A stretch of DNA of 42,161 nt from Enterobacterales bacterium (GTDB lineage: Bacteria > Pseudomonadota > Gammaproteobacteria > Enterobacterales > Kangiellaceae). The stretch spans positions 1 through 42,161 of the forward strand of contig JAUZSK010000090.1 in NCBI GenBank assembly GCA_030949565.1, written 5' to 3'. Of the stretch, positions 29,662-42,161 are shown in pieces; positions within the stretch are counted from its first letter, which is position 1; the number at the start of each line of letters is the position of its first letter. Under the pieces are notes generated by a model, which ran no database searches, had not been told where the DNA came from, and saw only the letters and a program-made list of their open reading frames with translations. Position numbers and translations under genes: made by a program.

Positions 29662-31695
29662 TTATAGAAATACTGTCAATCTATAAGCTTCTAATAGAGC
29701 TGAATGAATAGAGCGAGAGGTCACAGCATCACCTAAACGATGTAAATAATAACCTTCAGCAGAAATTGATGGTTGAGCCGACCATTCCGCCATGGCATCA
29801 ACATCAGTTATTCCTTTATTTAAAGAGTGTTCCCGGAGCTCAAAGAAAACTTCGGCTAGCGGTTCTGTACCGGCTTCAAGAATAACTTGATCTGTGACAA
29901 ACTGCTGTAGTTGCCCCGTTAGTTCGTGTGTTAAAGTAGCGACAAGCTGGTTATTTTGTTTTATCAGATTAGTGAGTTTCAGGTAGGGATGAGTATTAAT
30001 GCCATGAGCTGCTAATTTCTTATGATAAATTATTCGATCGGTATAACCCATCTCGGTGGCAGAATGTGAGTCAATCGTGGTAAATGTGACACTACAACCA
30101 CTAGCAGCTAGGTGATCGGCAGTTGAAACAGCCTCCTGCCGTCCAGTATGATCACATATTAGAACATTCTTAGCAGCTTGTATCGATCCTGATAGAATAT
30201 CCCAACTGGTCACTGACAGTTGTGCACCAGGGAAAAACTGTTCTGCTGGCATCCCACCTGATGCAATAAAAACATGATGTGGTTTTTCGGCTAAAACATC
30301 TGATGCATCTGCGTAGATATTACAGCGAACGACTACACCAAGTTTCTCAAGTTCCGCTTCACGCCAGTCAACGATTGAGATTAAGTCTTTTCGCCAACTG
30401 GTCTTAGCGGCTAATTGGATTTGGCCACCAAGTCTTGGAGAGGCTTCAAATAAAATCACCTTATGACCGCGTTCAGCGGAGACACGTGCAGCTTCCATGC
30501 CGGCAGGTCCACCGCCGACAATAACAACTGTCTTTCCGGGGACATTGCTTGGTGATACAACCATTGGCAATAACGTTTCTCTTCCTGAGGCCGGATTGTG
30601 GATGCAATGAGGTTTTTTGTAGATACAATGAGATGCTCCAATACAGGGTCGAATTCTGTCTTCTTCACCTTGAATTATCTTGTTAACAATTTGTGGATCG
30701 GCTATGTGAGCCCGTGTCATGGCAACCATATCCAAAAGACCGTCGCGAATGGCATAACGTGCGTTGGCGACATCGGTGACACGTGCAGCGTGAAATACTG
30801 GTACACCGATTGCTTTGCGAAATTGGCCGACAAGCTCAAGATAAGGCACTAGAGGGCGGCTCATACCAGGCATGTTTTCTTCGACAAGCGTCAGCTCAGT
30901 ATCCATTCTGCCTACGTTACAGTTAATAAAATCCACACCTCCGTGAGAGGTCAATATTTGAGCGGTTTCAAGCGCTTCATCAAAGCGCAGACCTCCTTCT
31001 CCTTCATCAAGGGTCATGCGTATCCCCATAATAAAGTCATCACCAACTTGGCGCCGCATTTCTTCGTGTACCATCAGTGCAAATCGCGCTCTATTTTTAA
31101 CACTTCCGCCATAGCTATCACGACGTTGGTTGGTCATTGGGGACAAGAATTGGCCTATCAAATGAGCACCAGCGAGTGTTTCAATGCCGTCAAGTCCACC
31201 GTCTTTGCATCTTAGTGCCGCTTGTCCAAAAGCCTTTATTACACGATCAATATCATATTGATCCATCTCTCGTGGAAAGTTTCTATGCAGGTTTTCGCGC
31301 ACGGCGGATGGTGCTATTGTTGGAAGCCAATTTTCAGCCTGCGCATCTCCACGGCGCCCCAAATGAGTTATCTGACACATCAAAGCCGCACCGTGCTGAT
31401 GGATACGTTCTGAAAATTCTTGAAAGTATGGAATGATCTTATCGCTAGCGACGTTGAGCTGATTAAAAAGAGAAGGCGAATCTGGGGCAACATTTGAACT
31501 GCCACCAAACATAGTCAGGGCTAATCCGCCTTTCACTTTTTCCTCATGATAACGCTGATAGCGTATATCTGGCATATTCAGATCGTCCATCGCGGAGGCA
31601 TGTGAGGTGCTCATCACTCGGTTCTTTAATGTTAATTTCTTAATCGTGAGTGGAAGTAGAAGAGGGTCTTTTGATATGATATTACTTTCGTTCAT
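29662..31695 (-). CDS. dgcA: Dimethylglycine demethylase, DgcA-like (TMADH/2,4-dienoyl-CoA reductase family)
   Basis: Old-yellow-enzyme-type flavoprotein fused to a pyridine-nucleotide-disulfide-like domain, about 677 residues. N-terminal FMN barrel (LPLTIKKLTLKNRVMSTSHAS; QITHLGRRGD; DGIETLAGAHLIGQFLSP), [4Fe-4S] segment CIGASHCIYKKPHC, then VVIVGGGPAGMEAARVSAERG. It matches the pattern of Pseudomonas DgcA, which removes a methyl from dimethylglycine to give sarcosine. Its usual electron-transfer partner DgcB is not in this window. ATG 31695 preferred; a TTG lies five codons upstream. Divergent from the corrinoid cluster, facing it across about 260 bp that must hold both promoters. Confidence 0.85.
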   Translation of the reverse strand: MNESNIISKDPLLLPLTIKKLTLKNRVMSTSHASAMDDLNMPDIRYQRYHEEKVKGGLALTMFGGSSNVAPDSPSLFNQLNVASDKIIPYFQEFSERIHQHGAALMCQITHLGRRGDAQAENWLPTIAPSAVRENLHRNFPREMDQYDIDRVIKAFGQAALRCKDGGLDGIETLAGAHLIGQFLSPMTNQRRDSYGGSVKNRARFALMVHEEMRRQVGDDFIMGIRMTLDEGEGGLRFDEALETAQILTSHGGVDFINCNVGRMDTELTLVEENMPGMSRPLVPYLELVGQFRKAIGVPVFHAARVTDVANARYAIRDGLLDMVAMTRAHIADPQIVNKIIQGEEDRIRPCIGASHCIYKKPHCIHNPASGRETLLPMVVSPSNVPGKTVVIVGGGPAGMEAARVSAERGHKVILFEASPRLGGQIQLAAKTSWRKDLISIVDWREAELEKLGVVVRCNIYADASDVLAEKPHHVFIASGGMPAEQFFPGAQLSVTSWDILSGSIQAAKNVLICDHTGRQEAVSTADHLAASGCSVTFTTIDSHSATEMGYTDRIIYHKKLAAHGINTHPYLKLTNLIKQNNQLVATLTHELTGQLQQFVTDQVILEAGTEPLAEVFFELREHSLNKGITDVDAMAEWSAQPSISAEGYYLHRLGDAVTSRSIHSALLEAYRLTVFL

Positions 31696-31955
31696 GTTGT
31701 TCTTGTTCAACCTCTAAAAAACGGAATTGAATAAAGACGAATGTATCGATTAAAACTTATTCAGCTAGTCTTTTGTGGAACTCTGTAGACCATAGTAATT
31801 GAGCAAAGCTTAAAGTATCTTTTAGCGATAGTATATCATTAATAACTAGTTTGTCGTCAGAAGATAACTGCGAGTCGTTACTAAGTAGAGCGTCCAGCCT
31901 TATTTCTACTAAAATCACTGTACTAGAATTTCCTAAATTTCACAGAGGTACCTTC

Positions 31956-32669
31956 ATGTCCGATGATATTGAAAATGACGAATATGATGATGAAGAAATT
32001 GATCTAAATGCATTGCCGGATGATGAATTGGTCGAGCAAATACAAAACGATCTCTATGATGGTTTAAAAGAAGAAGTCGTTGAAGGTACCGAAATATTAC
32101 TACAAAGGAAATGGAAGCCAGCCAAAATACTGAGTGAAGCTTTAGTTGGTGGTATGACCATTGTTGGTATTGATTTTAGAGATGGGATACTTTTCGTCCC
32201 TGAGGTCTTATTGTCAGCTAATGCTATGAAAGGCGGTATGGAGATCTTAAAACCATTATTATCTGCTTCGGACTCAGTATCTGCAGGTAAAATGGTCATC
32301 GGTACGGTAAAAGGTGACATTCATGACATTGGAAAAAACCTAGTAAAGATGATGATGGAAGGCGCTGGTTTTGAGGTTATCGATCTAGGTATTAACCAAT
32401 CGGTGGATGACTATTTTGCAGCCTTAGAAGAACATAAACCGGATATTTTAGGTATGTCTGCATTACTAACTACAACCATGCCTTATATGAAAGTTGTGAT
32501 TGATGAGATGGTCGCGAAAGGCATACGAGATGATTATATTGTCCTAGTAGGCGGTGCACCATTAAATGAAGAGTTTGGTGAAGCGGTAGGTGCCGATGGC
32601 TATTGTCGTGATGCAGCTTCCACCGTTGATATCGCCAAACAGCATTTAGCGTTGCGTAAAGCCGGTTAA
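31956..32669 (+). CDS. Corrinoid (B12-binding) methyl-carrier protein
   Basis: Carries the methyl group between the betaine methyltransferase and the THF methyltransferase. The 237 residues have a helical MetH-like cap (about 35-105) and a Rossmann B12 domain with DxHxxG in GDIHDIGKNLV (His123 is the lower cobalt ligand), the SxL motif in GMSALLTTTM, and GGAPLNEEF. The N-terminus is very acidic (14 Asp/Glu in the first 24 residues). ATG 31956 is preferred because CAGAGG precedes it and the acidic start matches family practice; a longer frame opens at 31851. First gene of a compact + strand run reaching at least the ASKHA gene. Confidence 0.95.
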   Translation: MSDDIENDEYDDEEIDLNALPDDELVEQIQNDLYDGLKEEVVEGTEILLQRKWKPAKILSEALVGGMTIVGIDFRDGILFVPEVLLSANAMKGGMEILKPLLSASDSVSAGKMVIGTVKGDIHDIGKNLVKMMMEGAGFEVIDLGINQSVDDYFAALEEHKPDILGMSALLTTTMPYMKVVIDEMVAKGIRDDYIVLVGGAPLNEEFGEAVGADGYCRDAASTVDIAKQHLALRKAG

Positions 32670-41561: not shown

Positions 41562-41808
41562 GGTTATTTCTCCAGGGATAATGAAGCTTATTATTCAATA
41601 TTAGAACTGATAGTAATTATTAATCATTTGCCATTAAAGTATGACAATGGATACGACCTTATTCGATATTTGAGCGTCATGGCGCGGTAGAAACATCGCC
41701 TGTCGCTTTGTTTGATTGAGAGATCGATTGCTTTGTGTAGAATTGCCCGATATTGGTAAGCTTAAATTAATCATTCAGATCATAAAAGCAAATCTGGAGT
41801 AGTCAAAC

Positions 41809-42161
41809 ATGGCAAAATTTCCAAACAAAGCAAAAGTTGTAATCATCGGACTCGGTGGAATTACCGGTTCATCGGTTGCTCATCACTTAATTGAGCGTGG
41901 TTGGGATGATATCGTCGGTATCGACAAGTCTGCTATTCCGACAGATATAGGTTCGACCGCTCATGCCTCTGATTTCTGTTTTAATACGATGCATGACCAA
42001 ATGACTATGCATACCACTCAATATAGTATCGACTTTTTTGAAAAAATGGGACGATATCAAAGAATTGGCGGCATTGAAGTGGCGCGGGTGGGTGATGATG
42101 AACGCATGGTGGAATTAAAGCGCCGTGTCACATCCGGTAAAGCCTTCGGCAATCGAGTTAA
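41809..42161 (+). CDS. FAD-dependent demethylase of the dimethylglycine/sarcosine dehydrogenase type, 3'-truncated
   Basis: Open to the window edge, 117 residues seen. N-terminal FAD motif KVVIIGLGGITGSSVAHHLIERGWDDIVGIDK, then IPTDIGSTAHASDF, whose His matches the covalent-FAD site of dimethylglycine and sarcosine dehydrogenases, then RIGGIEVARVGDDERMVELKRR. The full family member is about 800 residues with a C-terminal GcvT folate domain; that part is out of view. ATG 41809 with TGGAG nine bases before it. Divergent from the MttB gene across 247 bp, which probably holds the promoters for both. Confidence 0.85.
   Translation, partial: MAKFPNKAKVVIIGLGGITGSSVAHHLIERGWDDIVGIDKSAIPTDIGSTAHASDFCFNTMHDQMTMHTTQYSIDFFEKMGRYQRIGGIEVARVGDDERMVELKRRVTSGKAFGNRV

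Follow-up and report, generated by a model that had tools for sequence, protein, structure and literature searches.

Which enzymes remove the first methyl group of glycine betaine in an apparently aerobic gammaproteobacterium? The question is raised by contig JAUZSK010000090.1 of the Enterobacterales (Kangiellaceae) assembly GCA_030949565.1, for which an initial annotation had proposed an oxygenase-free betaine demethylation cluster, with an MttB-family methyltransferase, at positions 29662-42161 (12.5 kb). The window analyzed here is the entire 42,161-base contig, and the genome (3.58 Mb in 94 contigs) is 93% complete. Gene identities come from Pfam and NCBIfam profile matches, and genes named by reading are marked as such. 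We consider it likely from the gene content that the locus encodes an MtgBCD corrinoid system that would convert glycine betaine to dimethylglycine without an oxygenase; it is a new example of a known aerobic system and is rare in its bacterial family.

The corrinoid core and its proposed mechanism

The mtgB-like gene (40011-41561, minus strand) matches PF06253 with 751 bits over positions 1-500 of 500, and its product is predicted to be a betaine:corrinoid methyltransferase. Because its frame has no internal stop, it is a non-pyrrolysine member of the MttB superfamily. Against the PDB, the protein scores 714 bits with 4yyc (labelled merely a putative trimethylamine methyltransferase), 436 bits with 2qne, which is called MtgB in PMC9842639, and 434 bits with the glycine betaine methyltransferase 9yce, all far above its score with the trimethylamine methyltransferase 7xcl (131 bits). 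On the plus strand, the mtgC-like gene (31956-32669) encodes a corrinoid protein with B12-binding (PF02310) and cap (PF02607) domains and a DxHxxG signature at residue 121. It is followed by genes for a DUF1638 protein (32673-33305; PF07796, 100 bits), proposed to be a cobalamin-reactivation helper from PMC12478193 and the available part of PMC5764234, a MetV-type methylenetetrahydrofolate reductase C-terminal-domain protein (DUF5981; 33318-33794; PF12225, 93 bits), and a MetF2-like methylenetetrahydrofolate reductase (33787-34782; PF02219, 111 bits). The next gene (34900-35802; PF00809) had been described as MetH-like; a methyltransferase is indeed encoded there, but it is a stand-alone, pterin-type methyltetrahydrofolate:corrinoid methyltransferase, MtgD (NF005719, 358 bits; cut-off, 259). 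Downstream are genes for a Gfa-family protein (35811-36230; PF04828, 75 bits), which may have a role in handling formaldehyde, and for a RamA/RACo-type corrinoid reductive activase with PF00111, PF17650, PF17651, and PF14574 matches (36334-37665 and 37691-38368). A GbdR-like AraC/GlxA regulator is encoded on the minus strand (39293-38799 and 38781-38461; NF052371, 152 and 142 bits; whole-gene cut-off, 480).

Family matches were therefore found for the MttB protein, corrinoid protein, activator, MetV-MetF pair, and GbdR-like regulator initially reported in these 12.5 kb, with the activator and the regulator each split between two frames. MtgB, MtgC, MtgD, and MetF are full-length open frames. 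The features by which we recognize an aerobic MtgBCD demethylase, namely, a non-pyrrolysine MtgB, MtgC and MtgD of the PF02310 and PF00809 types, RamA (here split) with DUF1638, and colocated MetF2 and dimethylglycine/sarcosine enzymes, are all present.

The identity and order of these genes and their conservation in relatives are observed, and we infer the substrate, direction, and regulation of the pathway. MtgB would transfer one methyl group of betaine to cob(I)alamin on MtgC, and MtgD would pass it from MtgC to tetrahydrofolate (THF). MetF2 and MetV would oxidize methyl-THF to methylene-THF, the carbon of which FolD and formate dehydrogenase would convert to formate and CO2. RamA, with the DUF1638 protein, may reactivate cobalamin that has become oxidized to Co(II), a function that would matter in an oxygen-respiring cell. 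Dimethylglycine dehydrogenase (DMGDH) and SoxBDAG would carry dimethylglycine to sarcosine and glycine, and the GbdR-like activator is predicted to control the pathway. The best reading of the locus is the one originally proposed, in which corrinoid chemistry takes the first methyl group and flavoenzymes the other two; one BCCT transporter gene and three COX1-family genes in the genome count in its favor. A two-half-site operator pattern present in at least three of ten intergenic stretches was sought and not found.

Enzymes of the later demethylations

The DMGDH-type gene is cut by the contig end, and only its start (41809-42161, plus strand; 117 residues; PF01266, 38 bits) lies in the window. 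Its assignment was judged via relatives: it is 65% identical to the start of an 855-residue protein in a relative (L038), the one full-length relative searched against structures, which has DAO, FAO_M, and GCV_T domains and finds its best structure matches in dimethylglycine oxidase (381 bits) and dehydrogenase (214 bits). The DMGDH type named in the initial annotation is thus backed by this relative, albeit for a gene start.

The cluster is larger than first described. The parts listed for the 12.5 kb are there, but genes for SoxBDAG, formate dehydrogenase, FdhD, and FolD lie upstream at 16027-27909. On the plus strand, SoxB sarcosine oxidase (22614-23867; TIGR01373, 718 bits; cut-off, 529) is followed by a likely SoxD (about 23870-24187; a frame seen by eye between SoxB and SoxA), SoxA split over two frames (24190-27278; TIGR01372, 510 and 847 bits; whole-gene cut-off, 1164), and SoxG (27247-27909; TIGR01375, 108 bits; cut-off, 144); the two SoxA pieces and SoxG, though under their cut-offs, are clear matches. 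An NAD-type formate dehydrogenase is encoded on the minus strand (16923-21315), with its alpha subunit (FdhA) split over two frames (TIGR01591, 424 and 311 bits; whole-gene cut-off, 666) and its beta and gamma subunits named by reading. It sits between the plus-strand genes for FolD, the methylene-THF dehydrogenase/cyclohydrolase (16027-16926; 49% identical to an annotated folD, L102), and an FdhD-type formate dehydrogenase accessory protein (21504-22367; named by reading). An NhaC-family antiporter gene (28158-29588, plus strand; TIGR00931, 308 bits; cut-off, 370) has a last part that is unmatched by the model, probably owing to another frame break.

Search for the oxygenase route

Neither gbcA nor gbcB was found over the NCBIfam cut-offs in the 93%-complete genome, from which GbcAB is likely absent. 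The only PF00848 (Rieske) gene, on contig C22, encodes a 370-residue protein that scores 153 bits against the GbcA model (cut-off, 670), with a match covering positions 28-231 of 420, and whose nearest PDB match is a carnitine monooxygenase (113 bits). A GbcB-like reductase gene on contig C8, in a parAB/mnmG region (named by reading), consists of three frame pieces scoring 203, 71, and 50 bits, about 324 in sum, against a cut-off of 500. As both scores are under the cut-offs and the genes are on separate contigs, the two were rejected as GbcAB. The lone CntA-like Rieske oxygenase gene (L003/L094) precedes a dimethylargininase-like gene (named by reading).

Relation to published systems

The system had initially been thought uncharacterized in this group. 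This claim of novelty falls, because the same system is described in PMC12478193 (Mausz et al., PNAS 2025), which reports aerobic MtgBCD and clusters in Gammaproteobacteria. In that study, the aerobe Ruegeria pomeroyi failed to grow on betaine and needed methionine when mtgC or mtgD was mutated, RamA and DUF1638 were predicted to be reactivation proteins, MetF2 was the suggested methyl-THF oxidizer, and mtg genes were found in marine Alpha-, Gamma-, and Deltaproteobacteria, often near genes for the later demethylations. The window resembles the MtgBCDE system of R. pomeroyi and other aerobic marine bacteria in MtgB, MtgC, MtgD, RamA, DUF1638, MetF2, and the downstream demethylases and in the gene clustering seen in marine Gammaproteobacteria, whereas its genome differs in having a MetH with an activation domain, no MtgE that we could find, and an additional gene resembling those of N-methylproline demethylases. 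With this genome, one more lineage joins a major pathway of marine betaine turnover that has been described recently. A split B12-dependent methionine synthase needs RamA-like and DUF1638 proteins, according to genetic evidence in the available part of PMC5764234 (2018).

An mtgBCDE region of Sinorhizobium meliloti is also described in PMC12478193, and record CP090106 (L103) of this species holds seven of the parts together with bmt, with 43-70% identity to the window proteins (MtgB, 64%; MtgC, 70%; DUF1638, 43%; MetV, 47%; MetF, 67%; MtgD, 62%; RamA, 50-54%). It differs in that bmt (MtgE) is nearby and that no SoxBDAG, DMGDH, or GbdR-like gene was matched in 25 kb. The anaerobe D. hafniense shares an MttB-superfamily betaine methyltransferase (436 bits to 2qne) and a corrinoid protein in its MtgBAC system, but its acceptor enzyme is MtgA (PMC12478193), whereas the window has the MtgD type. 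In Colwellia psychrerythraea, as far as the available part of PMC3691474 goes, horizontally gained sarcosine oxidase (SoxBDAG) genes, formate dehydrogenase genes, and an NhaC-family antiporter near compatible-solute genes resemble the window; there, however, the sarcosine oxidase genes adjoin gbcAB and dgcAB, which provide the first two steps assigned here to MtgBCD and DMGDH. In our literature search, no paper linked Aliikangiella to glycine betaine, and none linked Kangiella to its demethylation.

The presence of MetH bears on what MtgC and MtgD do. PF02574 has a single match in the genome, in the first piece of a frame-broken MetH; the pterin, B12, and activation domains are in the second piece. 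A separate MtgE (homocysteine-binding, PF02574) was not found in the 93%-complete genome. Because a full-domain MetH is present and no MtgE was found, MtgC and MtgD are probably purely catabolic here and unshared with methionine synthesis, unless the MetH break is real. Genomes with both metH and mtgBCD (28/239 with metH) are typically those of Hyphomicrobiales, SAR324, and certain Alphaproteobacteria (PMC12478193), which makes the present gammaproteobacterium an exception. As a natural case of catabolic Mtg proteins beside a full-domain MetH, apparently without MtgE, it could serve to tell apart the two roles proposed for MtgC and MtgD.

Conservation in relatives and probable horizontal gain

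Scanning named genomes with MtgB gave 264 relatives, and the analysis continued with the best 80; all counts out of 80 below come from this set. Neighboring genes were sought by tblastn at set identity thresholds, and 39 of the 80 relatives had about 10 kb on both flanks of MtgB. MtgC, MtgD, RamA, and DUF1638 all occur near MtgB in 49/80 relatives (28/39 with both flanks), including Gammaproteobacteria (Leucothrix pacifica, Porticoccaceae, and Halieaceae) and Alphaproteobacteria (Aurantimonas and Novosphingobium). Genes for the GbdR-like regulator, SoxB (at least 60% identity), and DMGDH are found near MtgB in 22, 9, and 11 of the 80, respectively; within the 49 relatives with the full core, MetV plus MetF occur in 18, the GbdR-like regulator in 21, and SoxB and DMGDH in 9 each. 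In Azoarcus sp. KH32C, an MttB that is 67% identical to that of the window is encoded between folD and choline-transport, betA, and betB genes, and its position beside betA and betB points to betaine.

Within its own lineage, the system is rare. Counting this genome, the MttB family is present in 1 of 40 genomes of the bacterial family (34 of them at least 90% complete) and in 3 of 197 of the order, and it is present in none of the five other genomes of the genus. The best named relative of MtgB is from Cocleimonas (77%; very near genomes may be left out of that scan), while for PurF, which is encoded on the same contig, the best named relatives include Kangiellaceae and Aliikangiella (77-79%). 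GC content is level along the contig (0.34-0.44), with no visible boundary. Two genomes of the genus have a FolD that is 77% identical to that of the window; two further congeners and two genomes of the family have one at 48-51% identity, and in a seventh genome none was found. FdhD relatives (50 and 53% identical) adjoin FolD in two congeners; in the window, formate dehydrogenase lies between them. An empty insertion site was sought without success via FolD in congeners (16.7 kb of G204 and 40 kb of G205), where among all window proteins FolD and FdhD alone matched. In another congener (G207), SoxA scored over the cut-off at merely 41-46% identity. These sequence comparisons suggest horizontal gain into a native neighborhood as the simplest reading, although the contig may instead have been wrongly joined.

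A flavoenzyme resembling N-methylproline demethylases

The gene at 29662-31710 (minus strand; PF00724), encoded divergently from mtgC, specifies an old-yellow-enzyme/TMADH-type demethylase that had been called DgcA-like. This holds at the superfamily level, but identity with DgcA was rejected: in a 21-row tree, two proteins from dgcAB operons (39-40% identical to the window protein and recognized by a neighboring DUF3483 gene, DgcB) sit apart on a long branch with full support, whereas the window protein clusters with P0047 and a Mesorhizobium protein, and DgcB (DUF3483, PF11982) had no match in the genome. Fourteen control genomes were silent for DgcB as well, though the model matches proteins of L145, L146, and L149. 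In V. natriegens, according to the available part of PMC12093977, DgcA is encoded beside dgcB with DUF3483.

Most of the 120 relatives listed for the flavoenzyme are unnamed or bear a generic name (NADH:flavin oxidoreductase, Old Yellow Enzyme family reductase, or FAD-dependent oxidoreductase), and two, P0047 (71%) and P0050 (72%), are named N-methylproline demethylase. So is H29 (55.7%) in the plasmid records, where two HpbA proteins (43%) are named N-methyl-L-proline N-demethylase. N-methylproline is therefore a candidate substrate as far as these names, which are database annotations, can guide. At 50% identity or more, the flavoenzyme gene was not found near mtgB in any of the best 80 of 264 relatives (top value, 42% in L035), and no betaine genes were found among the neighbors of its nearest relative (61%) in a search of the class. 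The family has the pattern C-x5-C-x5/6-C in 120/120 listed proteins (the window protein and 119 relatives). TMADH and FadH carry the pattern C-x2-C-x3-C-x11-C, which occurs in 0/120.

Another gammaproteobacterial genome (G296; L148, 6508-10104) has an MttB-family gene separated by 18 bases from the gene for an HpbA-clade N-methylproline demethylase, and a LysR regulator is encoded divergently; the two genes are predicted to be a B12-dependent proline betaine pair in a gammaproteobacterium.

Frame breaks

Many genes of the assembly are split between frames, within the pathway and outside it. MetH and MnmG (named by reading), on other contigs, are broken, as is a gamma-glutamyltransferase gene in the window (named by reading). 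Among named relatives with both halves matched at 30% identity or more within 5 kb, a check that covered three genes, the halves are in one open frame in 50/50 cases for the activase, 22/22 for GbdR, and 5/5 for SoxA. Of nine breaks inspected, six lie in stretches that hold a run of at least five A or T; MnmG has a GGGG run alone, and a sensor gene and MetH have no run. In random stretches of 46-141 bases, the chance of such a run (at least five A or T, or four G or C) is 0.30-0.70. The many split genes, including MetH and MnmG, suggest an assembly rich in indel errors. Since the breaks extend to genes with no part in the pathway, sequencing error is the favored, though weakly supported, cause. 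Break stretches lie at 9000-9047, 18177-18235, 25440-25485, 37600-37668, and 38782-38860 of the window and elsewhere at L093 10744-10937 and L095 6150-6300.

Alternative explanations

Several points weigh against a working MtgBCD route from glycine betaine. The present data do not tell substrates apart among members of the MttB superfamily, and MtgC falls under the cut-offs of both NCBIfam MtgC models (209 bits versus 370 and 166 bits versus 310). Part of the core is missing from the stretch examined in 31/80 relatives (11/39 with full flanks), four pathway genes (RamA, GbdR, SoxA, and FdhA) are frame-broken in the assembly, and the sub-cut-off score of the GbcB-like reductase is partly due to frame breaks. 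Finally, the gene next to mtgC encodes a flavoenzyme whose group includes proteins named N-methylproline demethylase, an enzyme that the glycine betaine route does not need. This last point leads to the idea that MttB demethylates another quaternary amine, proline betaine (stachydrine) foremost, after which the flavoenzyme would act on N-methylproline. Its names and tree position fit that idea, as do the L148 gene pair and the precedent of E. limosum MtpB, a proline betaine methyltransferase (available part of PMC8604678). We nevertheless regard it as unlikely: the DMGDH, SoxBAG, and GbdR-like genes of the same cluster point to glycine betaine, as do the betA and betB genes adjoining the Azoarcus MttB; the L148 MttB is just 51% identical to that of the window, versus 64, 67, and 71% for those of S. 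meliloti, Azoarcus, and Leucothrix; and at 50% identity or more, none of the 80 relatives has the flavoenzyme near mtgB.

The frame breaks would have another meaning if they were real and the pathway were dead in the organism. Both halves of each broken gene are recognizable in different frames; however, MetH, MnmG, and gamma-glutamyltransferase are broken likewise outside the pathway, the A/T runs in 6/9 stretches are a weak pointer to sequencing error, and MtgB, MtgC, MtgD, and MetF are open at full length, so that we judge decay improbable. That a Rieske oxygenase elsewhere performs the betaine step, leaving MttB to serve something else, seems very unlikely: the genome does have one Rieske gene and a GbcB-like reductase gene, but the former is a partial, carnitine monooxygenase-like match that precedes a dimethylargininase-like gene, and the latter is on another contig. 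Least probable, and hardly to be expected, is that MtgC and MtgD act in making methionine, in the manner of the split methionine synthase of Phaeobacter inhibens. The two proteins do both jobs in R. pomeroyi (PMC12478193), and the first piece of MetH would be a stand-alone homocysteine-binding domain if its break were real; against this, the one PF02574 match in the genome is that piece, MetH includes pterin, B12, and activation domains, and a separate MtgE was not found.

Oxygenase-free demethylation of glycine betaine by MtgBCD thus remains the preferred reading. A broader and speculative version, to which we give a small chance, is that the locus is a horizontally gained, oxygen-tolerant B12 betaine island of a Kangiellaceae-like bacterium, cut loose from methionine synthesis, in which one MttB might feed both glycine betaine (via DMGDH and SoxBDAG) and proline betaine (via the N-methylproline demethylase encoded divergently from mtgC).

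Other observations

Contig C8, which carries the GbcB-like reductase gene, also encodes (L095, 10878-17366) a 2162-residue protein that has FG-GAP-like and RHS-like repeats, both named by reading, and, close to its start, a short series of QQPTANS repeats.

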